Shown here: positions 9,432 to 59,900 of the stretch, piece by piece
Layout: every line of letters begins with the position of its first letter
How positions within the stretch are numbered: the stretch's first letter is position 1
Assembly: GCA_027491155.1 (NCBI GenBank)
Contig: JAIXWR010000026.1
Span: 1 to 64,000, forward strand
Reading direction: 5' to 3'
DNA length: 64,000 bases
Origin: Verrucomicrobiaceae bacterium
Lineage (GTDB): Bacteria > Verrucomicrobiota > Verrucomicrobiia > Verrucomicrobiales > Akkermansiaceae
Made by a program: the position numbers and the translations under genes
Notes under the pieces: generated by a model
Told to the model about the DNA's origin: nothing
The model's database searches: none
What the model saw: the letters and a program-made list of their open reading frames with translations, nothing else

Positions 9432-10184
9432 TCAGGCTGCGGCGAAATGGCGGTGGAAGATCCGCGTGAAGTGCTCGTCCGGGGAATGCTCGCCGAGGTT
9501 CCGGAGGAAGCCCGTGAAGGCCCGGTGGATCTGCCTTTTTCCCGCAACGAAGGGTGCCTGGCCGATCCATTCGCCGCGGTGGCGGAGCACCACCGGGCCG
9601 GTGGGCTCCTGGCCGTTCCCCGCCTCGAAGCCCAGCGTGTAGCCGCCGAACTCCCGCTGCCAGATCCGGCCTTCGGGCCGGAGGCCGAGCAACTGGTAGA
9701 GCGCCCGGATGCCCCGCGGCGACTCGAATGCATCGTTCCACGGGACCGCCACGTGCCCGGGAGCGCCGGGAGGGACGAAGACGTGGTCGAGGATATGGCG
9801 GGATTCGAGGCCGGCTTGCGGGTCGTATCCGGCGATGCCGAGTCCGAAGGGGTGCCCGCCGCGCCGGATCCCGGCGGTGTGATGGAGGAGCTGCCCGATC
9901 GCGTCGGCATACAGGCTTTCCACGTGGGTGGAAAAGGTCAGGCCGCCCCAGCGGACTTCCAGTTCGTGGTGGTCGGCGTCGACGATCTCGAAGCAGGCGT
10001 AAGCCGTGCCTTCGGCACCGCCGGCAACCTCGAGGTGGGGGAGCCGGGGGTCGATGGAATGGCAGGCTTGCCGGTCGAGCCGGTAGGCGGCGGATTCGCC
10101 GAAGACGAGGACCGGCAGCTTGCAGCCGGCGGCGGATGGTGGGGAATCTTGGTTCATGGGATCGGGTTCGCGGTTGGATGACAT
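9432..10184 (-). CDS. Protein of unknown function controlled by a likely SAM riboswitch
   Basis: 250 aa (241 aa if the ATG at 10157 is used). Soluble, no signal peptide. It contains several His-rich patches (DADHHELEV, QLLHHTAG, FHRHFAAA) and a GIAGYDPQAGLESRHILDHVF stretch. No family recognised. Its leader holds the riboswitch-like RNA (10283-10367) about 100 nt before the start. With the 138-aa partner it may act in methionine, SAM or one-carbon metabolism. That role is inferred only from the regulator. Confidence 0.65.
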   Translation of the reverse strand: MSSNREPDPMNQDSPPSAAGCKLPVLVFGESAAYRLDRQACHSIDPRLPHLEVAGGAEGTAYACFEIVDADHHELEVRWGGLTFSTHVESLYADAIGQLLHHTAGIRRGGHPFGLGIAGYDPQAGLESRHILDHVFVPPGAPGHVAVPWNDAFESPRGIRALYQLLGLRPEGRIWQREFGGYTLGFEAGNGQEPTGPVVLRHRGEWIGQAPFVAGKRQIHRAFTGFLRNLGEHSPDEHFTRIFHRHFAAA

Positions 10185-10282
10185 CGCGAGGCCCCGGGCG
10201 GGGGCATGCGGTGGCCGGGCGAGGCCGGGTCGCAGGCGGAAGATCCGCGGAGACTGTTTTGGGCAGGTTTGTCCGGTCCTGC

Positions 10283-10367
10283 TCCCTCATCCCGTCGTCG
10301 ACGGTAGCACCTTGGCGTCTCGGCTAGGTTGCTGGCCCGGCGTTGCCGCCGGAGCACTCATGATGTC
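10283..10367 (-). promoter_or_regulatory. SAM-I/IV-clan riboswitch (candidate)
   Basis: On the minus strand, in order: TCATGAGTG (10355-10363), a perfect CCGGCG-GCAA-CGCCGG hairpin (10337-10352), GCAACC (10327-10332), AAGGTGCTA (10305-10313), a perfect CCGTC-GAC-GACGG hairpin (10292-10304) and GATGA (10287-10291). This order of conserved blocks matches the SAM-I/SAM-IV family, especially its TCATGAGTG...GGTGCTACC variants. The closing P1 helix is weak by eye, which lowers confidence. It lies in the leader of the 9432-10184 gene and on the same strand. A covariance-model search would decide. Confidence 0.6.
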
Positions 10368-10508
10368 GGCGTCAGCCTGCCACGGGCCGGGGCCCGCCGC
10401 AATCCGGATCGGGCCCGGCGGTTGTCATGAACCGCCGTCGCGCCGGAAACGGCCGGCCCGCATGACCGGGTCTACGGGTTGGGCCGGCAGGGAAAGGCCG
10501 CCGGATCC

Positions 10509-10651
10509 GGACACGAAAAGGGGCCGCACACTCGTGCGGCCCCGATGAATTTCGTCATGAAATTTCTTTCATCCCCGGCGGTCGCCCGCCTTCGGATGTC
10601 AGGAAGATGCCCTTTTTCCCCCGATCTGTCTTGTCCCCATGATTTGGGACA
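10509..10651 (-). repeat. 143-nt structured repeat, copy 3
   Basis: Third copy. The terminator-like hairpin is extended to 10 bp (10520-10529 with 10534-10543) and the GCGA-loop hairpin is at 10577-10590. Unlike copies 1 and 2 it does not follow a stop codon. It lies upstream of the riboswitch on the same strand, so the riboswitch operon has a direct repeat on each side. The rest of this intergenic stretch (10185-10777) holds only the riboswitch and no gene. Confidence 0.87.
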
Positions 10652-10777
10652 AGGCCGCGCCGCCCGTCGCGCCGGCGGAAATCGTCAATCCGGTGGAAAC
10701 TCCCGGCGGCGGATCTTGCTGAAGGAGGTCGAGCCCGTCCCGCGACATGCCGTCCGGACCGCGCTCCCCACCCAGAC

Positions 10778-11239
10778 ATGAAAACCACCCGTCCGATCCT
10801 CGCCGCCGCCCTCGCCCTCGCCCTTTCCGCCTGCAAGAAGCCGGAATCCGGAACGGGCGATGCCGCGGCACCCGCCGCTGCCGCCCCGAGCCTCGAGGAA
10901 AAGGTCGCCCAAGGGCCGGAAGCCGCCGCCGCCGAAGCCGTCAAGATCCAGGAGGAACTCGCCGCGGTCATGGAGACCGTGACCGATGCCGCCAGCGCCG
11001 AAGCGGCCATCGCCAAACTCGGCCCGATCGCCGAGAAGTTCGCGATCGTGGCCAAGGCCGCCGAGGGCATGGACAAGCAGCTTTCCCCGGAGGCCGATGC
11101 CAAGCTGAAGGAGCAGCTCAAGCCGTCCCAGGACCGCCTTTCCGCGGCGATGGAAAAGGCGATGCCGGTCATCTCGCAGAACCCGGAGATCGCGCAGAAG
11201 ATGCAGGACGCGATGTCGAAGATGGCCCCCAAGCCCTGA
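10778..11239 (+). CDS. Ala/Glu-rich lipoprotein
   Basis: 153 aa. Signal peptide with lipobox LSAC, so probably a lipid-anchored envelope protein. After a short Ala/Pro linker, residues 40-150 are almost wholly predicted helix with high Ala, Glu and Lys. EKAMPVISQNPEIAQKMQDAM near the end may form a coiled coil. No family recognised. It stands alone, divergent from the riboswitch operon and convergent with the next minus-strand gene. Confidence 0.75.
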   Translation: MKTTRPILAAALALALSACKKPESGTGDAAAPAAAAPSLEEKVAQGPEAAAAEAVKIQEELAAVMETVTDAASAEAAIAKLGPIAEKFAIVAKAAEGMDKQLSPEADAKLKEQLKPSQDRLSAAMEKAMPVISQNPEIAQKMQDAMSKMAPKP

Positions 11240-11322
11240 GGGGCTTCACGACGGATTTCCCAACGCCATGGCACCACCGCTTTCCCGGGCAAGCCTCCCG
11301 GGAAGCGGTGAAACCTCGCCGC

Positions 11323-12105
11323 TCAGGGCATGTTGTAGCGGTGCGTGGTGGTCACGCTGCCGCCTTCGACCAGGCAGCCGTTCGCGATCATGGCCCGCAG
11401 GCCCACCGGCGCGCTGCTGCCGTTCACGAAGATCTCGCAGTCCCTCACCAGCTTCGCGGAGATGCCGGTGCCGGTGACCTGCTGGACCGTGCAGCCGCTC
11501 ACGCTGCCTTCGATGCCCCCGGGCGTCGGTCCGATGAGGATCCCGCCACCACCGTCGCGCACCGTGCAATCGCGCACCACGATGGTGGACTGCGGCCAGT
11601 AGAAGACGATGCCGTAGCGGCAGCCGGTGATCTGCAAGTCCTCGACGGTCACGTTGAAGCCTTCGCCCGGCACATTGAAGCCGCCCTCCACGCCGGCTTC
11701 GAAGCCCCCGCCTGCCAGGTTCGCGGCGTCGTTGTAGAAGCCGCTCTTGATGCGGCCGTTGCGGATGACGATGTTTTTCCCCAGCACGAAGATGCCGCGG
11801 AACGGTCCGCTGCCGGAAAGGGCGGTGCTGGAAATCGTGAAGCCGCCGAGGTCGAGCGTGACGTCGTCGGCCTCGATGCGGATGCCGTCGACCGCGCCGA
11901 CCGTGATGTCGCCGCCGAGGACGTAGTTGCCCGGCTGGTTGATCACCAGCGTGGTGGTCCGCGCGGCGATGACGGTGCGCGGCTCGATCTGCTCGAGGGT
12001 TTTCATCACCGGTGCCGGCGGGCCGGGCGGCGTGAGCGGGCCTTGCGCCAGCACGGGCTGCAGCAGGAGGGGAAGGAAGGCCGGGAGGAGGAGTTTGGGG
12101 TTCAT
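11323..12105 (-). CDS. Secreted beta-helix protein
   Basis: 260 aa from the ATG at 12105, which gives a signal peptide (MNPKLLLPAFLPLLLQPVLA). A Pro-rich linker is followed by PGNYVLGGDITV and IEADDVTLDLGGFTI, then helix coils with KNIVIRNGRI, FNVTVEDLQI and STIVVRDCTVRDGGGG. This is the right-handed parallel beta-helix pattern. No catalytic residues are evident. It starts 7 nt after the stop of the preceding exported protein, so the two are probably co-transcribed. Confidence 0.8.
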   Translation of the reverse strand: MNPKLLLPAFLPLLLQPVLAQGPLTPPGPPAPVMKTLEQIEPRTVIAARTTTLVINQPGNYVLGGDITVGAVDGIRIEADDVTLDLGGFTISSTALSGSGPFRGIFVLGKNIVIRNGRIKSGFYNDAANLAGGGFEAGVEGGFNVPGEGFNVTVEDLQITGCRYGIVFYWPQSTIVVRDCTVRDGGGGILIGPTPGGIEGSVSGCTVQQVTGTGISAKLVRDCEIFVNGSSAPVGLRAMIANGCLVEGGSVTTTHRYNMP

Positions 12106-47545: not shown

Positions 47546-50278
<2,733 letters not shown>

Positions 50279-50294
50279 CCGACGGATCCGGCTT

Positions 50295-50699
50295 TCACCC
50301 AAGCCGGCGGACCTCCGGCAGCGCGGCCATCTTGCGGTCATTGGTGACCGTCACCACACCCTCGCGCTGGTAGTCGTCGACGATCAAGCGGTCGAGAAGT
50401 CCGCACCCGGTCTGAACGGTGATTGCCTTGAGCGCCGAGGCCCCGTTCAAGGGTGAGACGAGGCCGCTCGCGAACACTTCGAGCAATGCCGCCCGAGCCT
50501 CCTGCTTCGTGACCCCGTAGTGATGCTGCACCGCGATGTAGGCCTCACCGATCACCTGGTTGGATGCCACGAGCCGCGAGCCCGGCTCGCTGGCCATCAG
50601 CTTCTCCAGCGCGTCCACCGTTTTCCGGTATTCCTTCTCCGGATCGCCCGTCAACAGGCGCACGAGCACCGAGGTATCAATCCCGAAGCGACGGCTCAT
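50295..50699 (-). CDS. vapC: PIN-domain toxin VapC
   Basis: 134 aa from the ATG at 50699. PIN ribonuclease fold with acidic residues in FGIDTSVLVRLL, the conserved Glu in QVIGEAYIAV, and Asp residues in LLDRLIVDDYQ and TNDRKM. VapC toxins cut specific RNAs such as tRNA. It overlaps the antitoxin gene by 23 nt. Confidence 0.9.
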   Translation of the reverse strand: MSRRFGIDTSVLVRLLTGDPEKEYRKTVDALEKLMASEPGSRLVASNQVIGEAYIAVQHHYGVTKQEARAALLEVFASGLVSPLNGASALKAITVQTGCGLLDRLIVDDYQREGVVTVTNDRKMAALPEVRRLG

Positions 50700-50919
50700 G
50701 CGTTTGCTGGCGGAAGGCTTCAAGGTCGAAGGCCGGCGTTCCCGGGCGGATCAGCGGCTTCAAGGGAGCGAGGCGCTTGCGGTCCACCCGGCGCGGACGG
50801 ATCAGGAATCCACCCGGCGACTCCTGGATCTCGAGATGATCCCCGGGACCGACTCCCAACGCGTCGAGCACCGCGGCGGGAAAGGTGACCTGTCGTTTGC
50901 TGGTGATCTTCGCGAGCAT
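50677..50919 (-). CDS. vapB: AbrB/MazE-type antitoxin VapB
   Basis: 80 aa from the ATG at 50919. SpoVT/AbrB swapped-hairpin domain AKITSKRQVTFPAAVLDALGVGPGDHLEI at the N-terminus binds DNA. The C-terminal tail (FDLEAFRQQTHEPSL) should wrap the PIN toxin. It likely represses its own promoter through the palindrome just upstream. Confidence 0.9.
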   Translation of the reverse strand: MLAKITSKRQVTFPAAVLDALGVGPGDHLEIQESPGGFLIRPRRVDRKRLAPLKPLIRPGTPAFDLEAFRQQTHEPSLRD

Positions 50920-50968: not shown

Positions 50969-51517
50969 TCAGGACTTCTTCCGCGGCAACAGCCGCCCGA
51001 CCAGCAAACCCGCCAGCGCGCACACGCCGCCGAGGATCCATTTCGTCATCCCCTGCAGCGACCCGATGATCGGATTCCCCACCGGATCGATCGCCGCGTG
51101 GATCCGCACGAGCTTCCACGCATCGCCTTCCTTCCGCGCCACCGCCGTCCACTGCGAGGTGAATTCGAAGCTCTTGCCGCCCCGCGTCACCTGCTCCAGC
51201 GCCCGGCCCTTGGCGATGGCGAGGTTCCCTTCGAAGAGCGTGTCATCGGGATCGAGCGTCACCTTGTAGCTGCCCTTGTCGCCGATGAAGCCTTCCACTT
51301 TCTTCCAGTAGTCGAGGACTCCTTGGAAGCCCTTCACCTCGTCGGCGGTGATCATCACGCCGGTAAAGTCCGCCGCCAGATGGGGCTGCAAGGCCGACAA
51401 GTCGCGCGCGGCGATCGCCTGTTCGTAGATGCCGCGCAGCTTGCGGAGCGCTTCCTTGTCTTCTTCCGAAGCAAGGACGGGGAGGCACAGGGCGATGAGA
51501 ACGAGCAGGGTTTTCAT
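50969..51517 (-). CDS. Exported DUF4440/SnoaL-like protein with C-terminal membrane anchor
   Basis: 182 aa. Signal peptide, then a nuclear-transport-factor-2-like alpha/beta cone: LRGIYEQAIAARDLSALQPHLAADFTGVM, GYKVTLDPDDTLFEGNLAIA-type strands and WTAVARKEGDAWKLVRIHA. A C-terminal hydrophobic helix (ILGGVCALAGLLVGRLL) and basic end anchor it in the membrane. Last gene of the desaturase operon, overlapping the previous one by 4 nt (ATGA). Confidence 0.78.
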   Translation of the reverse strand: MKTLLVLIALCLPVLASEEDKEALRKLRGIYEQAIAARDLSALQPHLAADFTGVMITADEVKGFQGVLDYWKKVEGFIGDKGSYKVTLDPDDTLFEGNLAIAKGRALEQVTRGGKSFEFTSQWTAVARKEGDAWKLVRIHAAIDPVGNPIIGSLQGMTKWILGGVCALAGLLVGRLLPRKKS

Positions 51518-52173
51518 GGGGATTCGCGGAGTCGTTTGCCATCCTTCCACCGGCTGAAGGGCGGGGAAATCAAAAACGCGCGGGTCGCCTCGTCGTCCGC
51601 GATCTCGGTGCCGGCCGTGAGCAGCGAATAGCCGCCGATCAAGGCGCGGTCGCCGATCTTCACCGGGGCCAGCCGCAGCACCGGCAGCTCGTCGCGCTCC
51701 ATCACGTGGGGATTCAGCCGCACCCCGGCACCGATGACCACATGGTCTCCGATGTCCAAAAAGCCGCGGTCGAGGATGATGGTACGAGGAGCCCAGTAGG
51801 TCAGCCGGCCGATCCGCGATCCCCACCCGCGCAGCCACAACGAATACAGCCCCGGCACCATCCGCAGCAGCTCCTCGGCCGCGGGGAAGCGCAGGAACAG
51901 CACCTGGCACTGGAAGCAGGCCCACCAGCGCAGGAAGGCCGGCGAGCCGACCGCGATGTCGCGCGGACATCCCCGCAGCGACTCGCGCAGCAGCCGGCCC
52001 GGCAGCAAAGGGGCGAGGTAGAACACGGCCGACGACAGACCGATCCGCTGCGGCCAGGGTAGCGGCAGGAACAGGCACGCGATCGTCCCCGCGGCGTGCA
52101 ACAGCGGCAGCAGGTTCAAGAGCAGCATCGCGAGCGGCGCCGCCTTCGGGTCAGCGGATGATTTTCCCGGCAT
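51514..52173 (-). CDS. Left-handed beta-helix acyltransferase-like membrane protein
   Basis: 219 aa. Two N-terminal hydrophobic segments, then a hexapeptide-repeat region: LTYWAPRTIILDRGFLDIGDHVVIGAGVRLNPHVM and VKIGDRALIGGYSLLTAGTEI. This resembles bacterial acetyl- or acyltransferases of the LbetaH class. The catalytic His could be His in NPHVMERDE. It overlaps the desaturase gene by 23 nt. It probably modifies a lipid made by its operon partners (inference). Confidence 0.75.
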   Translation of the reverse strand: MPGKSSADPKAAPLAMLLLNLLPLLHAAGTIACLFLPLPWPQRIGLSSAVFYLAPLLPGRLLRESLRGCPRDIAVGSPAFLRWWACFQCQVLFLRFPAAEELLRMVPGLYSLWLRGWGSRIGRLTYWAPRTIILDRGFLDIGDHVVIGAGVRLNPHVMERDELPVLRLAPVKIGDRALIGGYSLLTAGTEIADDEATRAFLISPPFSRWKDGKRLRESP

Positions 52174-53071
52174 GATGGTTTTCCACGCGTTCGTCGGTAT
52201 GGCGCGGCCCGCGCCACATCCGCAGGTAGGCAGCGAGCAGGCGGCCGCGTTCGCCGTCGGCTTCATCGGTGATCTCCGGCAAATGGACCCACGGCACGGT
52301 CGGCCGCGCGTGGTGATTGCGGTGCCAGTTGTGGTTCAGCCACAGCGCGTCGAGCCAGCGCCAGGTCCGCAGATTGCGCGCGCCCTTCAACACGTCGCGC
52401 TCGGTGCCGAAATGATGGACATACTGGAGCGCCGACCACAGCAGGCCGAAGCTGCCTAACAGAATGAAGTAGTGCGACGCCGGCACCCGCCACAGCGCCA
52501 TCCAGCCGCCGTGCAGGACGAAGACCGCCAGCGCTTCCAAGCGGATCAGCCGGAAGTACTTCGGATTGAGGGAATCGAGCAACGCCTTGGTCGGCCGGTC
52601 GAAATCCCCCCACTTCGCTTTCAAGCCGGCCGGATGAACCAGCGCGATCGCGTTTCCCAGCACCACCGCAAGATAGAAAAATCCGGAAAGGATGCCGTAG
52701 AGTTGCAGTGTTTTCCACACCCGGCTTTCGCCGTCGAAATAGAAGTCGAAGGCCTCGTCGTCCGAGCGGTTCCGCAGGTGGTGCCCGATGTGGCCCTGCC
52801 GCAGCAGGTGGAAGGGCGCGGGAAAAAACAGCGCGAGTCCCGCGCCGACGGCATCGTTCACGACGCGGTTCCGGTGCAGCGAACCGTGTTCCGCCTCGTG
52901 CAGCATCGCGTAGGCGGAATTCATCACCAGCGCGTAGCCGATGGCCAATCCCGCGAGTGCCCACGGCGACCCGACGAAGCCCGCCGACGCCAGCAAGGCC
53001 AGCAGCACCGCCGCCTGCCCCGCGGCGATCCAGAGGTTCAAGCGACCGGGAATGGGAAAGTCGTCGTTCAT
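52151..53071 (-). CDS. Membrane fatty-acid desaturase/hydroxylase (B)
   Basis: 306 aa. Integral membrane diiron enzyme with the three His boxes: HEAEHG (about 57), HIGHH (about 94) and HNWHRNHH (about 260), plus HH in YVHHFG. Four to six membrane spans. The family includes acyl desaturases and carotene hydroxylases. No crt genes are near, so an acyl substrate is likelier. Overlaps the diiron oxygenase gene by 4 nt. Confidence 0.85.
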   Translation of the reverse strand: MNDDFPIPGRLNLWIAAGQAAVLLALLASAGFVGSPWALAGLAIGYALVMNSAYAMLHEAEHGSLHRNRVVNDAVGAGLALFFPAPFHLLRQGHIGHHLRNRSDDEAFDFYFDGESRVWKTLQLYGILSGFFYLAVVLGNAIALVHPAGLKAKWGDFDRPTKALLDSLNPKYFRLIRLEALAVFVLHGGWMALWRVPASHYFILLGSFGLLWSALQYVHHFGTERDVLKGARNLRTWRWLDALWLNHNWHRNHHARPTVPWVHLPEITDEADGERGRLLAAYLRMWRGPRHTDERVENHHAGKIIR

Positions 53072-53967
53072 GGCCGTTCGTAGGCAAGCAGGTGGCGGCC
53101 GATGTCGCGGAACTCCGGAAGTTCATCGAACAAGGCGAAGCAGCGCGGCGTCGACTCGCGGCTGTAGTGGCTGGCGTGGTAGTCACGCGACGTCGCGAGC
53201 TCGCGCAACTCGCCGCCGAGTTGCGGGGCGAGGGGATGAAGCTCGGGAAACTCATCGAGCAAGGCTTGCAGCACCCGTATCGCCGAGCGTTTCGGGGCGG
53301 TGAAGAATTCCCCCATCATCGCGCCGAACAGCCGCGCCTGGAGGCGCCGCTTCCATCTCGGCAGCGGCAGCCACACCTGCTCGACCAGCTTGAGGTCCCA
53401 GCGGACGTGATCGATCTCGTCGGCGAGGTGCTTGCGGTGGAGATCGCGGAAGGCCGGCTCGATGCCGGCGTCCGCCTTCAGGCACTCGCGCGCCACCGAG
53501 ATCGAGCGCTCTTCCTGGATCAGCATCAGCCAGATCCACAGCGGAAAGGCGAAGGGCCGCCGGGCGAACCATGCGGCGACGGCCTGCGTCCGCCCGCCCA
53601 CCGGGACGAAAACATGGCGGCCCTGCTCCAAGGAATAGCGCAGCGGATCAACACGGTGGTTGAGCTCGCGGAACCAGCGGGAATGCCGCTTTTCCTCCAC
53701 CTCGAACTGCCGCAGGTCGGCCGCCAGGTCCTCGCCGATCCGGTCCGGCCTCTCGTACAAAGCCGGCAGCAGGGTGCCCGCCAGCAGTTCCTCGAAAAAC
53801 ACCGTCTGCTCGTTCAGATAAAGCGCGTGATGCTGCGAGTGGCGGAGCCGGTGGCGATCGTCCAGCAGTCCCCACGAGGGCACCTGAGCCAGCGTCGTCA
53901 GGTGGAGCGGGAAGAAGGGCAGCGAGAAATCGATGCCCGGGCGGGTGATGGTGGCTTCAGCGGGCAT
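53068..53967 (-). CDS. AurF-like diiron oxygenase
   Basis: 299 aa, soluble, helical. Ferritin-like diiron ligands: Glu in NEQTVFFEELL, EVEEKRHSRWF (E-x2-H), Glu in LIQEERSIS, and HLADEIDHVRW (H-x3-E-x2-H). This set matches the AurF/CmlI group, which oxidises amines to hydroxylamine or nitro groups or inserts oxygen into lipids. Its position between two desaturase genes suggests an oxygenated acyl product. The substrate is not known. Confidence 0.82.
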   Translation of the reverse strand: MPAEATITRPGIDFSLPFFPLHLTTLAQVPSWGLLDDRHRLRHSQHHALYLNEQTVFFEELLAGTLLPALYERPDRIGEDLAADLRQFEVEEKRHSRWFRELNHRVDPLRYSLEQGRHVFVPVGGRTQAVAAWFARRPFAFPLWIWLMLIQEERSISVARECLKADAGIEPAFRDLHRKHLADEIDHVRWDLKLVEQVWLPLPRWKRRLQARLFGAMMGEFFTAPKRSAIRVLQALLDEFPELHPLAPQLGGELRELATSRDYHASHYSRESTPRCFALFDELPEFRDIGRHLLAYERP

Positions 53968-54811
53968 GGTTCACGGCGGGTCGTCGCAGGCGCTCGATCA
54001 GCAGTCCGGAAAAACTCCGGTGGTCCAGAACCGGATTCATTCGCGGCACCACGTGGCGGCGGTGGAACTCGGGCAGCAGGCTCCAGTGCATCGACGGCCT
54101 CAGATGGTGCGCGGTGTGGTAGCCGTTGTTGAGCAGCAGCCAGTTCACCAGCCGGCCGGTGACATTGCGCGAGTGGTCGTATTCGGAATCGGTGACGCAG
54201 TCCTGGTGCTGCAACAGATTCACCCCGACCAACGCGAGCTGCGCGGTGATCCACGGCAACAGCAGGAAGAGCAGCGTCGCCCGCCAATCGAGCACCAGCA
54301 GCAGCACCAGGGCCGGATAGAAGATCGACCGCTCCCACAGCGCCTGCCGGTAGAGATGAGGTCGCGCGCTTTTCCACCGGCGCAGGTCGTCCGGCTTCTC
54401 GCGATACATCGCGGCGATCGAAAGGAAGGGAAACGCGACCAGGTTCAGCGCGTTCCAGCGGAAGCGGGCCAGGCCGGTGCGGACGAAATCCCGATCGCTG
54501 TCCGGCTGGCCGTGGTGGCGCTCGTTGTGCGCCGTCACGATCCCCGTCGGCGGCTGGCCGGAGCCGAACATCAGCAGGATTTGGAAAACCCGGTTCCACC
54601 CGCGGCCGCGGAACAAGGGCAGGTGCATGTGGTTGTGCGCGATGATGCAGCAGACGAAGGCGAACAAGAACGACGCGGCGACCGCCAGCGGATGCCGCCA
54701 CGCGCCGCTCCAGATCCCCGCCAGCAAGCCCAATTCCAGCCCGACGAAGCCGAGCGTCCGCCAATCCGCCCGATGGCGGAGTCGTGGGATGATCGGGACG
54801 CGGGATTTCAT
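53957..54811 (-). CDS. Membrane fatty-acid desaturase (A)
   Basis: 284 aa from the ATG at 54811. His boxes HNHMH, HNERHHG and HTAHH with an extra LQHQD, and four or more membrane spans. Family members insert double bonds into acyl chains at the membrane using a diiron centre. First gene of the minus-strand operon, divergent from the Rieske oxygenase with 129 nt between the two starts. Overlaps the next gene by 11 nt. Confidence 0.87.
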   Translation of the reverse strand: MKSRVPIIPRLRHRADWRTLGFVGLELGLLAGIWSGAWRHPLAVAASFLFAFVCCIIAHNHMHLPLFRGRGWNRVFQILLMFGSGQPPTGIVTAHNERHHGQPDSDRDFVRTGLARFRWNALNLVAFPFLSIAAMYREKPDDLRRWKSARPHLYRQALWERSIFYPALVLLLVLDWRATLLFLLLPWITAQLALVGVNLLQHQDCVTDSEYDHSRNVTGRLVNWLLLNNGYHTAHHLRPSMHWSLLPEFHRRHVVPRMNPVLDHRSFSGLLIERLRRPAVNHAR

Positions 54812-54940
54812 GACTCGGCATTCCACACGATGCGCCGCGCGCTGGCGAATCGTTAATCGGAAAGTCACCATCGGTTCTCCGAATGATGGCGGGGGTGGAA
54901 ACGATTCGCCACGGCCGGGCGGGAGGAGTTAGATCAACCC

Positions 54941-55945
54941 GTGCTCCGGGGTCATTGGTACATCGCCTGCCGCTCGCAACAGCTCGCCAAGGGCCCGCTG
55001 GCCCGGACCATCGCCGGCGAGGCGCTCGCGATCTTCCGCGGTCCGGATGGCAACGCGGCCGCCTTGATCGACCGCTGCGCGCACCGGAATCTCGCGCTGT
55101 CCCGCGGCAAGGTCACCGCAGGCGGGCTGCGCTGCGCCTACCACGGCTGGACCTGGGGTGCGGACGGTCATTGCACGCGGATCCCCTCCGCCTGCGAGCC
55201 CGATGCCTGCCGCGCGATCCGCGTGAAGGCCTATCCGGTGAGAGAGCAACAGGGCTTCGTCTGGGTGTGGATGGCCTCCGCGGAGAAGGCCGAACCCGAC
55301 CGCGAACCGCCGCTCTTCCCCTGGCTCGGCGAGCCGGGCTGGCGCCACTTCGTGATGGAGCGGGTGTTCGAGGCCGATGCCTTCCACTGCGTCGAGAATT
55401 TCCTCGATGTCCCGCACACCGCGCATGTCCACCGCGGGCTGTTCCGCGGCGAGGAAAGCAAGGAGATCGAACTCGAGATCACCGGCGGCGAGGACTGGAT
55501 CGAAGCGGAGTTCATCGGCGAGGAACGGATGGACTCGTGGATCGGCAAGCTGCTGGTGCCGGCGGGCAGCGCGGTGCGGCATGTCGACCGCTTTCAACTG
55601 CCCTACGTCACCCGCGTCGACTACCGGATGAGCGAGAAGCGGCAGTATGTCGTGATGAGCCAGTGCACGCCGGAAAGCCCGGAGCGCACGCGGGTCTTCA
55701 CCTATCTCGGCTTCCGCTTCGAACCGCTCGGCGGGCTGATCAAACTCATCTTCCAGCCCTTTGCCGGGGCCATCCTCAATCAGGACGTCGAGATCCTGCG
55801 GCAACAGACCGAGGATCTCCGCCGCACCGGTGCGGCGCGCTTTCTCTACCACGAAACGGATGCCATCGCGCGCGGCATCCGCGATCTTCTCGACGGCAAA
55901 TCGCTGGCCGGGCGCGCGCCGGAACGCAAACGGCTGAAGGTATGA
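54941..55945 (+). CDS. Rieske non-heme iron oxygenase
   Basis: 334 aa from a GTG with GGGAGGAG about 12 nt upstream. N-terminal Rieske [2Fe-2S] site C-x-H...C-x2-H in CAHRNLALSRGK and LRCAYHGWTW. The catalytic domain has FHCVENFLDVPHTAHVH, holding the two His of the iron site and the bridging Asp. It resembles single-component oxygenases of the VanA/choline-monooxygenase type. No ferredoxin or reductase is adjacent. First gene of the plus-strand operon. Confidence 0.87.
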   Translation: MLRGHWYIACRSQQLAKGPLARTIAGEALAIFRGPDGNAAALIDRCAHRNLALSRGKVTAGGLRCAYHGWTWGADGHCTRIPSACEPDACRAIRVKAYPVREQQGFVWVWMASAEKAEPDREPPLFPWLGEPGWRHFVMERVFEADAFHCVENFLDVPHTAHVHRGLFRGEESKEIELEITGGEDWIEAEFIGEERMDSWIGKLLVPAGSAVRHVDRFQLPYVTRVDYRMSEKRQYVVMSQCTPESPERTRVFTYLGFRFEPLGGLIKLIFQPFAGAILNQDVEILRQQTEDLRRTGAARFLYHETDAIARGIRDLLDGKSLAGRAPERKRLKV

Positions 55946-56520
55946 AGGACGCCTGGCACATCGCGGTCGACCGGATGCCGGTGTGGGCGGCGGCAGTGCT
56001 GCTGGCTTTCCAGCTCGCCGCGCCGCTCTTCCATGCCTGGCAAAACCAGCCGGGAAAACTCGGCGGGCCGATCTCGCGGGCCAAGGCGGCCTGGCTGGTC
56101 CACGCGGCGACGCTGTGGCTGCTGCTGCCCGTCCTGCTGTGGAACCAGCACCCGGCCTACGCGTGGCTGGGGGCCTCGATGGCACTGCGGACGATCATCG
56201 AGCTGCCTCTCTGCGCCTGGCAGAAATGGAGCACCAACCACGGGCTCTCCCACGACGCCGCGCACGCGGCGATCGCGCTGTGGTGGCTGCCGCGGGTGCC
56301 CGGGGACGCCGCGCTGTGGATCGTCCTCACGCTGCTCACGCTCGCGGCGGAGGTGTTCTTCGTGCTGCGTTTCCGCAAGTCCACCGCCGGTCCGGCGAAC
56401 GGCATCTACTTCGTGCCGGACGGCCCGGCGCATGCGAGGCTGAACCTGATCACCGACTTCGTCCGCATGCCCTCGCAGTATCTCATGGTCTCCATCCTGA
56501 TCGCCGCATGCCTGCGCTGA
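55942..56520 (+). CDS. Membrane protein of unknown function
   Basis: 192 aa with about five hydrophobic segments. His/Asp-rich NHGLSHDAAHAA between two spans could bind metal, but it does not follow the desaturase box pattern. No family recognised. Coupled to the Rieske gene by an ATGA overlap and overlapped by the next gene, so it belongs to this pathway. Confidence 0.75.
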   Translation: MKDAWHIAVDRMPVWAAAVLLAFQLAAPLFHAWQNQPGKLGGPISRAKAAWLVHAATLWLLLPVLLWNQHPAYAWLGASMALRTIIELPLCAWQKWSTNHGLSHDAAHAAIALWWLPRVPGDAALWIVLTLLTLAAEVFFVLRFRKSTAGPANGIYFVPDGPAHARLNLITDFVRMPSQYLMVSILIAACLR

Positions 56521-57242
56521 ATGCCATGGTCCTCACCAGTTCCGCGCGCGTCGCCGCCACTCTAACGGCCGCCGAGCGCGACGCGATGCACGCGCTGATG
56601 ACGGAGCACTACGAGGCGGTGCCCCGCGAGCGCTTCGAGGCCGATCTCGCGCGCAAGGACGAGGTGCTGATGCTGCACGACGGGCATGGCACGCTGCGCG
56701 GCTTCACCACCCTCGCATGGAATCCGGCGGGGCTGCTTCCCGAGGGCGACATCCTGTTTTCCGGCGATACCATCATCGACCGGAGCTGCTGGGGCACGCA
56801 GGAACTGGTCCGCGCCTTCTGCCGCCGCGCGGGCGAATGGCGGGCGAACAGCGGCCGCCCGCTGTTCTGGTTCCTGCTGTCCAAGGGCCATCGCACCTAT
56901 CTCTATCTGCCGGTCTTCGCGCGGCGCTTTCATCCTCATCCCGATCACCGCGAGCCGGCTTGGGAAGAACTGGCATCGAAGGTGGCGGAAGCCATGTTCG
57001 GCGAGGCGTGGAAGCCGGACGAAGGAGTGATCCGCTTTCCCGCCAGCCACGGTCACCTGCGGGGGGAGATCGCGGTGACCTCGCAGGAACGCCGCCAGAA
57101 CCCGTGGGTCCGCTTTTTCCTGGAGCGCAATCCCGGCTACGCGGCCGGCGAGGAATTGGTCTGCCTGACCGAGATGCGCGAGGACAATCTCCGCCGCGGG
57201 GCACTCGCGGCATTCCGTGAAGGGAGCGGGGAAGGATCATGA
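56508..57242 (+). CDS. GNAT-like protein of unknown function
   Basis: 244 aa; an ATG at 56526 is an alternative start. AERDAMHALMTEHYEAVPRERFEADLARKDEVLML opens a chain whose later part (GDTIIDRSCWGTQELVRAFCRRAGEW and HRTYLYLPVFARRFHP) has the look of an N-acetyltransferase fold. No canonical acetyl-CoA loop is evident, so the call is tentative. Overlaps the membrane-protein gene by 13 nt. Confidence 0.6.
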   Translation: MPALNAMVLTSSARVAATLTAAERDAMHALMTEHYEAVPRERFEADLARKDEVLMLHDGHGTLRGFTTLAWNPAGLLPEGDILFSGDTIIDRSCWGTQELVRAFCRRAGEWRANSGRPLFWFLLSKGHRTYLYLPVFARRFHPHPDHREPAWEELASKVAEAMFGEAWKPDEGVIRFPASHGHLRGEIAVTSQERRQNPWVRFFLERNPGYAAGEELVCLTEMREDNLRRGALAAFREGSGEGS

Positions 57243-57279
57243 AACGTGCCATTCCGAGCCGGCTACGGCGGCTAACCAT

Positions 57280-57424
57280 GGAATGCGACGGCATGACGTC
57301 GCTTTGGCTCGGGGTGAAGTCCGCCGCACCTCGACGACCGCGGACCTGCCGGGAAGGCAATCCGTGGCCAGCAAAACGAAGCGTCCTCTCCTCAAGCCAA
57401 AGCTGCGTCGTGCCGCAACACTCC
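57280..57424. repeat. Palindromic MITE/REPIN-like repeat, family C, copy 2
   Basis: Inverted orientation relative to 26360-26514. The left arm contains TGCGACGGCATGACGTCGCT and the right arm AAGCTGCGTCGTGCCGCAAC, which pair imperfectly. It ends 5 nt before the GH3-ligase start codon, inside an otherwise tightly packed operon, so it is probably a recent insertion that could affect translation of that gene. Confidence 0.82.
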
Positions 57425-57429
57425 ACGTC

Positions 57430-58845
57430 ATGAACCCCCGCGCCGCCGCTTTGCTCTCCGCGCTGGAGCCCTATGCCATGGCGGCGGGCGACCCGTGGCC
57501 GCGCCTTCGCGACTTGTTAGAACTACATGCCGATACGCAGTTCGGCCGCGCGCACGGCTTCAGCTCGATCCGTTCGCCGGAAGACTTCCGCGAAGCCGTC
57601 CCGCCGATGAACTACGAGGATCATCGGAGTTGGATCGACCGCTGCGCGAACGGCGATCGCGGCGTGCTGGCCTGCGACGAACCCGTGGGCTTCGAGCGGA
57701 CCTCCGGCACCAGCACGCGGCCGAAGTGGATCCCGCTGACCACCGGACTGCAGGAGGAATTCGCCCGCGGGCTGGCATCGTGGTTCGGCGGCTGGCGGAC
57801 GCGGCGGCCGGAGGTCTTCGCGGGTCGGGCTTACTGGGCGCTTTCCCCTGCCGGCATGGCCGCGGAGACCACGCCCAGCGGGCTGCCGGTCGGAATGACG
57901 AGCGACGCCGCCTATTTCCCCGATTCCGTCGGAGCTCGGCTGGCGGACTGGTTGGTCGTGCCGAACCTGAGCGGCGATCTGTCGACGCTGTTCGAAGAGA
58001 CCGCCGGGGCCCTGCTCGTGACGCCGGACCTCGGCCTCGTGTCGGTGTGGAGCCCGACCTTTCTGTTAGGCATCGATGCCGCCGTGCAGCGGCTGCGTCC
58101 CGGCAAGATCTGGAGCGATCTCTGGCCGAAGCTCGCGCTGGCAAGCTGCTGGGCCGACGCGTCGAGCTCGCCTTGGATCCCCTTGCTCCGCGAGCGGCTG
58201 GGTAGGGTGGCCATCGAGCCGAAAGGCCTGCTCGCGACCGAGGGCGTGACCTCGCTGCCGGACGCGATCGACGGCAGCCCGCGGCTGGCTGCCGAATGCC
58301 ATTGGCACGAGTTCCTCGACATGGAAGGGCGTTTCGTCGCCATTCGCGACCTGCAGGCCGGCCGGGATTACGAGGTCCTGCTCACTACCGCCGGCGGCCT
58401 GTTCCGCTACCGCAGCGGCGACCGGGTGCGGGTCACCGCGACCCACGGCGCGCTCCCCCGACTTCGCTTCACCGGCCGCGGCGGAGCGGTTTCGGATCTG
58501 GTCGGGGAAAAGCTCCACGAGAACCAGGTGCTCGCGGCCTTTCTCGCCACGGGGGAGCGCGGTTTTGTCGCCGCCGACCCCCGGCGGCCGGGCTACGATC
58601 TCTGGCTGGAAGATGGATCGCGCGCCGCGGACCTGGTGGCCGTGCTGCGGAAGAATCCCTACTTCGACCAGGCGCTGCGCATGCGCCAGCTCCCGCCGCC
58701 CGCGGTCCGCAGCCTGCCTCCGGGCTGGCCGCTCAAGCTCGCGGCTTCCCTTGCCGCCCTCCGCGGTGCTAGGGTCGGCGACGTGAAGCTGCCGACGCTG
58801 GTCACAATGCAATCCGACGGGGAGGTGGAGGAATGGCTGGCCTGA
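57430..58845 (+). CDS. GH3-family acyl-amide synthetase
   Basis: 471 aa. GH3 adenylating enzymes join carboxylic acids to amino groups through an acyl-AMP. The ATP loop is ERTSGTSTRPKWIPLT. Later come AYWALSPAG, the second nucleotide-site segment LATEGVTS, YEVLLTTAGGLFRYRSGDRV and FTGRGGAVSDLVGEKLHE, all hallmarks of the family. It would supply the ligase step for the cluster. Reading starts at an ATG 5 nt after the family C repeat. Confidence 0.9.
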   Translation: MNPRAAALLSALEPYAMAAGDPWPRLRDLLELHADTQFGRAHGFSSIRSPEDFREAVPPMNYEDHRSWIDRCANGDRGVLACDEPVGFERTSGTSTRPKWIPLTTGLQEEFARGLASWFGGWRTRRPEVFAGRAYWALSPAGMAAETTPSGLPVGMTSDAAYFPDSVGARLADWLVVPNLSGDLSTLFEETAGALLVTPDLGLVSVWSPTFLLGIDAAVQRLRPGKIWSDLWPKLALASCWADASSSPWIPLLRERLGRVAIEPKGLLATEGVTSLPDAIDGSPRLAAECHWHEFLDMEGRFVAIRDLQAGRDYEVLLTTAGGLFRYRSGDRVRVTATHGALPRLRFTGRGGAVSDLVGEKLHENQVLAAFLATGERGFVAADPRRPGYDLWLEDGSRAADLVAVLRKNPYFDQALRMRQLPPPAVRSLPPGWPLKLAASLAALRGARVGDVKLPTLVTMQSDGEVEEWLA

Positions 58846-59900
58846 CCGTCCGTCCCGCCTTGCCCGGGGACCACGCCGCGCTCGAAGAGTTGTTCCGCGC
58901 GACCTCGATGGGCTCGAGCATCCGTCTCTACGTCGAACGCGATCCCGACTACTTCGCCGGGGCCCGGGTGCAAGCCGAAGAGCCCTGCGTGTGGGCGGCC
59001 TTCGACGGAGGCGGCCGCGCCGCCGGCATGCTCTCCGCCGGCAAGCGCCGCGTGTGGCTCGGCGGCGAAAGGGACATGCGCTACCTCTGCGACCTCCGCA
59101 TCCACCGCGACTGGCAGCGCTCGACCCTCTTGGCGCGCGGCTTCCGCCTGCTGAAGCGCGAGATCTTCACTCCCGGCGAATGGGCGCAGACCCTCGTGCT
59201 CGAGGACAATCTCCAGGCGATCGAACTGCTCTCCAGCCATCGCGCCGGACTCCCCGAATACCGCCCGGCGGGCATTTACCTGACCTGGCTGCTGCCGGCC
59301 CAGCTGCTCGATGCCGACCCGTCGATCACGGTCCGCCGGGCGAAAAGATCGGACCTGCCGGAAATGCAGCGCGTGTACGACGACTCCATCCGGCGGCGGA
59401 GCTTCGCGCCCGTGGTCGATTTCAACGAGCTCGGCGGCCCGTCGTGGCCGGACCTCGCGGTGGAGGATTTCCTGGTGGCTGAAAAGGACGGCCAACTCCG
59501 CGGGCTGGCCGGCTTGTGGGACCAGAGCCGCTTCCAACGCCTGAGGATCGCCGGCTACTCGCAGGTCCTGTCGCTGCTCCGGCCGCTGTGGAATGCCGGC
59601 ACCCTCGTCAGCGGCGGCGTCGCGCTGCCCAGGCCCGGCGACGCGCTGCCGCTGAAAAAAGCCACCGCGGTCGCCTGCGACGACGACGATCCCGCCATCC
59701 TTCGCGCCATGCTGGCGCACGCCTTGCAGGACGACGACCGCAAGCTGCTGCTGGTCGGCATGTCCGCCGCCGATCCGCTTGCCGCCGCGCTGCAAGGCCT
59801 GCGCGGACGCCAGGATCGCGGCCGGCATTTCCTCGTCGGCTGGGAAGGGGAGGCACCCGCGTGGCAGGAGCCCTTCGCCTTCGACGTCGCGCGGATTTGA
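58833..59900 (+). CDS. GNAT-family N-acetyltransferase-like protein
   Basis: 355 aa, possibly two GNAT repeats. First: LTVRPALPGDHAALEELFRATSMG and DLRIHRDWQRSTLLARGFRLL, which is the acetyl-CoA region. Second: ITVRRAKRSDLPEMQRVYDDSI. It overlaps the GH3 gene by 13 nt, so the two are co-expressed. It could load an acyl or acetyl group onto the product of the ligase. The imperfect palindrome 59891-59912 overlaps its stop codon. Confidence 0.8.
   Translation: MAGLTVRPALPGDHAALEELFRATSMGSSIRLYVERDPDYFAGARVQAEEPCVWAAFDGGGRAAGMLSAGKRRVWLGGERDMRYLCDLRIHRDWQRSTLLARGFRLLKREIFTPGEWAQTLVLEDNLQAIELLSSHRAGLPEYRPAGIYLTWLLPAQLLDADPSITVRRAKRSDLPEMQRVYDDSIRRRSFAPVVDFNELGGPSWPDLAVEDFLVAEKDGQLRGLAGLWDQSRFQRLRIAGYSQVLSLLRPLWNAGTLVSGGVALPRPGDALPLKKATAVACDDDDPAILRAMLAHALQDDDRKLLLVGMSAADPLAAALQGLRGRQDRGRHFLVGWEGEAPAWQEPFAFDVARI

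Follow-up and report, generated by a model that had tools for sequence, protein, structure and literature searches.

A GNAT, GH3 and tandem-GNAT gene core found in many phyla and its eleven-gene version in a Verrucomicrobiaceae bacterium, a candidate pathway for a modified acyl amide

OlsH, a bacterial GH3 ligase of Singulisphaera acidiphila, joins fatty acids to ornithine, and in planctomycetes the genes encoding OlsH and the alpha/beta-hydrolase OlsI lie in one operon (PMC12493201). The AcsF and BchE cyclases of chlorophyll synthesis provide a model for the replacement of an oxygen-dependent enzyme by a B12-radical S-adenosylmethionine (SAM) enzyme (PMC4500134). Here we compare with these systems a cluster of eleven genes from a Verrucomicrobiaceae bacterium, located in a DNA stretch of 64,000 nucleotides (the window; contig JAIXWR010000026.1, assembly GCA_027491155.1), in which all coordinates without a locus number are positions. 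The eleven genes are a real cluster forming a pathway, and its core, consisting of the genes gnatA, GH3, and gnatB, is found in many phyla. We regard as evenly poised the reading that this is a two-module cluster for a modified acyl amide, an amphiphile resembling an amino lipid.

Ten of the genes had been described in an earlier note on this DNA as two divergent, overlapping operons, and we verified their open reading frames (ORFs), overlaps, and coordinates: all ten ORFs are intact and lie near the places assigned to them. The operon starts are separated by 69 base pairs (bp), and adjacent genes share overlaps of 4-116 bp, with the sole exception of gnatA and the GH3 gene, which are 187 bp apart in the window and have no gap in locus L007 of a congener. 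Pfam matches above cut-off were obtained for FA_desaturase (two genes), AurF, Hexapep, DUF4440, Rieske with VanA_C, and GH3 with GH3_M, and the Rieske motifs CxH...CxxH and DxxHxxxxH as well as three His boxes in both desaturases (des1 and des2) are intact. These results bear out the desaturase, AurF, Rieske, GH3, hexapeptide, and SnoaL labels of the earlier note.

The set is kept together in relatives. In L007 (congener G118), all ten genes and a gene encoding a 910-amino acid RnfD/FG-GAP/UnbV protein occur in unchanged order with 69-85% identity, and L010 (G079, from another family of the order, on a contig shared with L047) carries the same eleven genes on one strand with 33-60% identity, in the order RnfD/FG-GAP, Rieske, membrane protein, gnatA, GH3, gnatB, des1, AurF, des2, hexapeptide, and SnoaL. 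Separation of the genes in relatives, which the earlier note had named as evidence against its proposal, was therefore not observed. Near-complete or partial versions were found in L048, L049, L050, L051, L055, L107, and a cyanobacterial metagenome-assembled genome (L097). The genes of relatives were called by a simple script and by hidden Markov models trained on the fly, which can overlook genes that are short or divergent, and contig ends truncate some loci, so that co-occurrence is understated. The listed contamination of the window genome is 4.56%, but the same cluster is present in the congener.

The joint conservation of the ten genes as a single locus was therefore upheld, whereas two features of that description were not: the ten genes divide into two modules with separate distributions, and an eleventh gene had been missed. 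The left boundary of the unit is better set at position 47546, because the RnfD/FG-GAP/UnbV protein accompanies the set in L007, L010/L047, L048, L049, L050, L051, L055, and L107; apart from the window, its gene adjoins the Rieske gene in 9 window-type loci. According to Pfam, this gene (47546..50278, plus strand, start codon uncertain) encodes a fusion of an RnfD/NqrB-like membrane domain, FG-GAP repeats, and an UnbV/ASPIC domain. In the RnfD/NqrB-like domain, the TDPxTSP motif is retained but the SGAT flavin-attachment motif was not seen, and a conserved APxYQWG/PPYQWG stands in that region. Between the Rieske gene and gnatA, a polytopic membrane protein of window type (55942..56520, plus strand) gave no Pfam or NCBIfam match and is alignable across 12 window-type and related loci.

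The GH3 gene of the core (57430..58845, plus strand) encodes an acyl-acid amido synthetase-like protein with GH3 and GH3_M domains. The protein scored 115 bits against PF03321 (cut-off 23.6), contains motifs I (TSGTSTRPK) and III (GLFRYRSGD), and matches the plant amido synthetase AtGH3.15 (E = 1e-19); it is a member of the GH3 family and, by its family, a putative amide-forming ligase. Motifs I and III and a GH3 ligase as the candidate amide-forming step are common to the window and the OlsH/OlsI ornithine lipid pathway. However, that pathway includes the OlsI hydrolase and the OlsG methyltransferase, whereas the window set has two GNATs and several oxygenases instead, and neither an OlsI-type hydrolase nor an OlsG methyltransferase was found among the eleven genes of the cluster. 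Ornithine lipid synthesis by OlsH was rejected, given that the protein reached 44.6 bits against the OlsH model NF052613 (curated cut-off 620), that the partner genes are absent, and that no PF13444 (OlsB-type) gene is present in the genome. In the GH3 tree, the L047 and L051 proteins are placed apart from those of the window, L007, and L107 despite a common gene order, and the GH3 gene may have been exchanged within the window-type cluster.

The two GNAT-like calls of the earlier note were supported by predicted structures, although neither gnatA (56508..57242, plus strand) nor gnatB (58833..59900, plus strand) had a Pfam match above cut-off, and gnatA had no sequence-family match in Pfam or NCBIfam. 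The AlphaFold2 model of gnatA (predicted local distance difference test, pLDDT, 95.0; 52 relatives) is a single-domain GNAT fold that aligned with NatD (Z 12.6; 154 residues, root-mean-square deviation, rmsd, 3.0), LasI (Z 11.8), and FeeM (Z 11.2), which are not clearly separated from one another. The GNAT fold is thus common to gnatA, the N-acyl amino acid synthase FeeM, and the LasI-type acyl-homoserine lactone synthases, but the latter two are no nearer to gnatA than NatD or GCN5. The model of gnatB (pLDDT 94.6; 43 relatives) is a tandem GNAT, predicted to fold like N-myristoyltransferase (NMT; Z 21.7, 299 of 355 residues, rmsd 3.8). The predicted likeness to the eukaryotic enzyme extends over the whole length, but identity is only 9-14%, and the bacterial tandem GNAT MAB_4324 of Mycobacterium abscessus ties with it (Z 20.9).

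The core extends far beyond the version in the window. PF03321 GH3 genes were found in 17 of the 19 gnatA-positive Verrucomicrobiota genomes compared with 40 among all 338 (hypergeometric p 7e-16, uncorrected for relatedness), and GH3 and gnatB lie close to gnatA wherever the neighbourhood was examined. GH3 alone is not a marker of the system, because in family f9 about 20 genomes carry GH3 and all except one of these are without gnatA; gnatA is the most specific core marker. Its distribution is patchy: 19 of the 338 Verrucomicrobiota genomes carry it, as do 2 of the 7 genomes sampled from the window's genus, one of them the window genome itself. When 84,980 species genomes were scanned, 331 gnatA-encoding stretches from many phyla were found, the best 80 of which came from Verrucomicrobiota, Elusimicrobiota, Pseudomonadota, Cyanobacteriota, Acidobacteriota, Planctomycetota, Gemmatimonadota, Bacillota, and others. 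Among 80 loci of at least 12 kb, which are the best matches and not a random sample, GH3 is within reach in 65 and gnatB in 45. The locus as first described is therefore one local version of a core that elsewhere, across many phyla, has radical SAM or Rieske partners.

Desaturases, PAP2, sterol-desaturase-like proteins, and an Mpo1-like domain recur as lipid-type neighbours of the core. An amidohydrolase fused to the Mpo1-like (2-hydroxy fatty acid dioxygenase) domain lies near the core in 11 loci (e.g., L073, 7244-9358), proteobacterial and some others. A radical SAM version is carried by a mobilizable IncF plasmid of Citrobacter portucalensis (L127, 9971-19280; NZ_CP134684.1), with gnatA, GH3, two radical SAM genes, gnatB, two further radical SAM genes, and PAP2; a search for near matches of this cluster found no Escherichia coli carriers.

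The partners of the core fall into two kinds. In the window, the Rieske gene (54941..55945, plus strand) encodes an oxygenase of the VanA/dicamba-monooxygenase type, with a Protein Data Bank match to dicamba O-demethylase (E = 9e-27). A VanA-type Rieske gene stands beside the core in 33 of the 80 loci, a pair of B12-binding radical SAM genes in another 33, and neither in 14; the two kinds never occur together (66 loci, Fisher p 1e-11). Rieske matches fall into two separate score classes (86-187 and 367-474 bits), with the alternation in the upper class only; exclusivity is limited to the VanA class, because five radical SAM loci (L090, L099, L117, L119, and L121) hold a lower-class Rieske protein. 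On the GH3 tree, three changes of the radical SAM label are needed and two are forced (starred branches), and on the gnatA tree, six are needed and three forced; the independent-pairs test was not significant, with too few contrasts. The notion that the exclusivity reflects many independent events is weakened by the few switches on the trees and by this test. The alternation is thus a strong genomic pattern resting on few events, and isofunctionality of the two sets goes beyond it.

BchE, HpnJ, PhpK, and a ladderane-type lipid family are the closest matches of the radical SAM proteins, all far below cut-off. The present case differs from that of AcsF and BchE in that BchE is matched far below cut-off and the alternation is only a genomic pattern. 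No radical SAM copy was found in the window genome with the L119 rsamA query, in a search without a positive control. Cyanobacterial and several proteobacterial loci contain extra enzymes of oxygen-dependent type (ferritin-like proteins, AurF-like proteins, and two additional Rieske proteins), as well as a 2Fe-2S ferredoxin-like protein, named by eye. Near the core cluster in L039, a single frame (9479-11740, minus strand) fuses radical SAM and PALP (pyridoxal-phosphate enzyme) domains.

It is quite conceivable, if a little short of probable, that the Rieske and radical SAM versions yield different products, so that the core is common and the tailoring sets are not isofunctional replacements. 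The core trio exists by itself in Acinetobacter baumannii X4-300 (L128), the two tailoring sets differ in number and kind, and independent switches are few; on the other side, the VanA-type Rieske gene and the radical SAM pair alternate strictly across 66 loci. The acyl amide pathway that we propose may have oxygen-using and oxygen-free versions.

In this pathway, the GH3 ligase would form an acyl-AMP from a carboxylic acid, which is most likely a fatty acid, and condense the activated acyl group with an amine, as suggested by its family. The gnatB and gnatA proteins may attach additional acyl groups or else provide the amine in acylated form. The VanA-type Rieske protein would oxygenate or demethylate the product or a precursor, with the polytopic membrane protein and the RnfD/FG-GAP protein as putative membrane partners. 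In other lineages, by analogy with known swaps between oxygen-dependent and oxygen-independent enzymes, the B12-radical SAM pair would take the place of the Rieske protein beside the same GNAT/GH3 core. The product is most likely a desaturated or oxygenated acyl amide, either a lipid or an exported amphiphile. An acyl amide lipid is suggested by the likeness of GH3 to amido synthetases, OlsH as the nearest precedent, the NMT-like gnatB, and the lipid-type neighbours.

Several observations weigh against this proposal. The GH3 proteins of window-type loci do not form one clade in the GH3 tree, the alternation of partners rests on few evolutionary switches, and the GNAT folds leave the acyl donor undefined. 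In addition, the minimal gnatA-GH3-gnatB trio of A. baumannii X4-300 (L128, 4989-14784; NZ_CP064203.1), without oxidases, is accompanied by tripartite efflux genes and an amidase, which suits an exported metabolite equally well. An exported small metabolite, such as a signal or defence amide, rather than a membrane lipid is a genuine alternative as the product, although a rather unlikely one. Here GH3 would couple an amine with an acid that is short or aromatic, the GNATs would acetylate the conjugate, and the oxygenases would decorate it. The trio of A. baumannii lies between genes for EmrA-like (named by eye) and EmrB-like (MFS transporter) proteins and an outer-membrane efflux gene, with the amidase nearby; the plasmid carriage in Citrobacter and the patchy distribution suit a secondary metabolite; and aromatic or small molecules are frequent substrates of the Rieske and AurF families. 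Nevertheless, such transporters are not among the recurrent families of window-type and most other loci, desaturases and PAP2 recur near the core, and the predicted fold of gnatB is NMT-like.

The minus operon is a module separate from the plus-operon core. All on the minus strand, it comprises des1 (53957..54871) and des2 (52151..53071), both of membrane fatty acid desaturase type, an AurF-like diiron oxygenase (53068..53967), a hexapeptide-repeat acyltransferase-like protein (51514..52266), which matched the NCBIfam Pls/PosA terminal domain below cut-off, and a DUF4440/SnoaL-like protein with a signal-like N-terminus and a C-terminal membrane segment (50969..51517). The AurF-like protein scored 58.5 bits against PF11583 (cut-off 29.6), contains the ExxH motifs EKRH and EIDH, and has no relative by sequence in the Protein Data Bank. 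In the proposed pathway, des1, des2, and the AurF-like oxygenase would desaturate or oxidise the acyl chain, which the hexapeptide protein may then transfer. The hexapeptide gene occurs in 32 of the 80 loci and des2 in 18, des1 is confined to window-type loci, and the SnoaL gene is kept in L007 and L010/L047 and lies near the cluster in L034. The module of AurF, des2, hexapeptide, and SnoaL genes accompanies the core in the radical SAM clusters L038 and L120, and partly in L034 and L035.

In L008 (4337-10237) and L009, the AurF-hexapeptide pair adjoins an operon of a desaturase, PAP2, DUF3419 (BtaA-like), and a GNAT weakly similar to gnatB, possibly a separate lipid pathway. DUF3419 includes BtaA of betaine lipid synthesis. 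Lipid chemistry is favoured because the pair adjoins this DUF3419/PAP2/desaturase operon. That the two divergent operons of the window are separate, merely neighbouring pathways is improbable: the pair occurs without gnatA and the rest of the core in L008/L009 and AurF is absent from several window-type loci, but L010/L047 and L048 carry both modules on a single strand, and the two are joined again in the radical SAM clusters L038 and L120, so their link survives rearrangement. Chance clustering of unrelated genes was rejected given this co-conservation despite rearrangement.

In open-licence papers on GH3 with Rieske, radical SAM, Acinetobacter, or N-acyl amides, we found only OlsH or unrelated work and no pathway with this gene set, in agreement with the earlier note, whose author knew of none. 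The cluster would fall within N-acyl amide and aminolipid biosynthesis and could prove a class of its own. More tentatively, we propose an undescribed, phylum-spanning class of biosynthetic gene clusters, in which a GNAT-GH3-tandem-GNAT core makes an acyl amide and oxygen-dependent Rieske/diiron and oxygen-independent cobalamin-radical SAM tailoring sets are interchangeable. If this is true, cyanobacteria, Burkholderia, Acinetobacter, Verrucomicrobiota, Acidobacteriota, Planctomycetota, and others would share an acyl amide family, the role of bacterial GH3 ligases would be widened beyond ornithine lipids, and functions would be provided for two unassigned GNAT families and several unassigned Rieske, AurF-like, and radical SAM families. 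It would also provide a new test case for the replacement of oxygen-dependent by oxygen-independent enzymes, or the reverse. The cultured carriers Calothrix, Tahibacter, and Chitinimonas make these proposals testable now.

Additionally, two minus-strand ORFs, assigned to families by eye, sit between the RnfD/FG-GAP and SnoaL genes of the window: a PIN-domain (VapC-like) ORF (50295-50723) and an AbrB/MazE-like ORF of 80 amino acids (50677-50919). In L007, the RnfD/FG-GAP and SnoaL genes abut, so this toxin-antitoxin-like pair seems to have been inserted in the window lineage.

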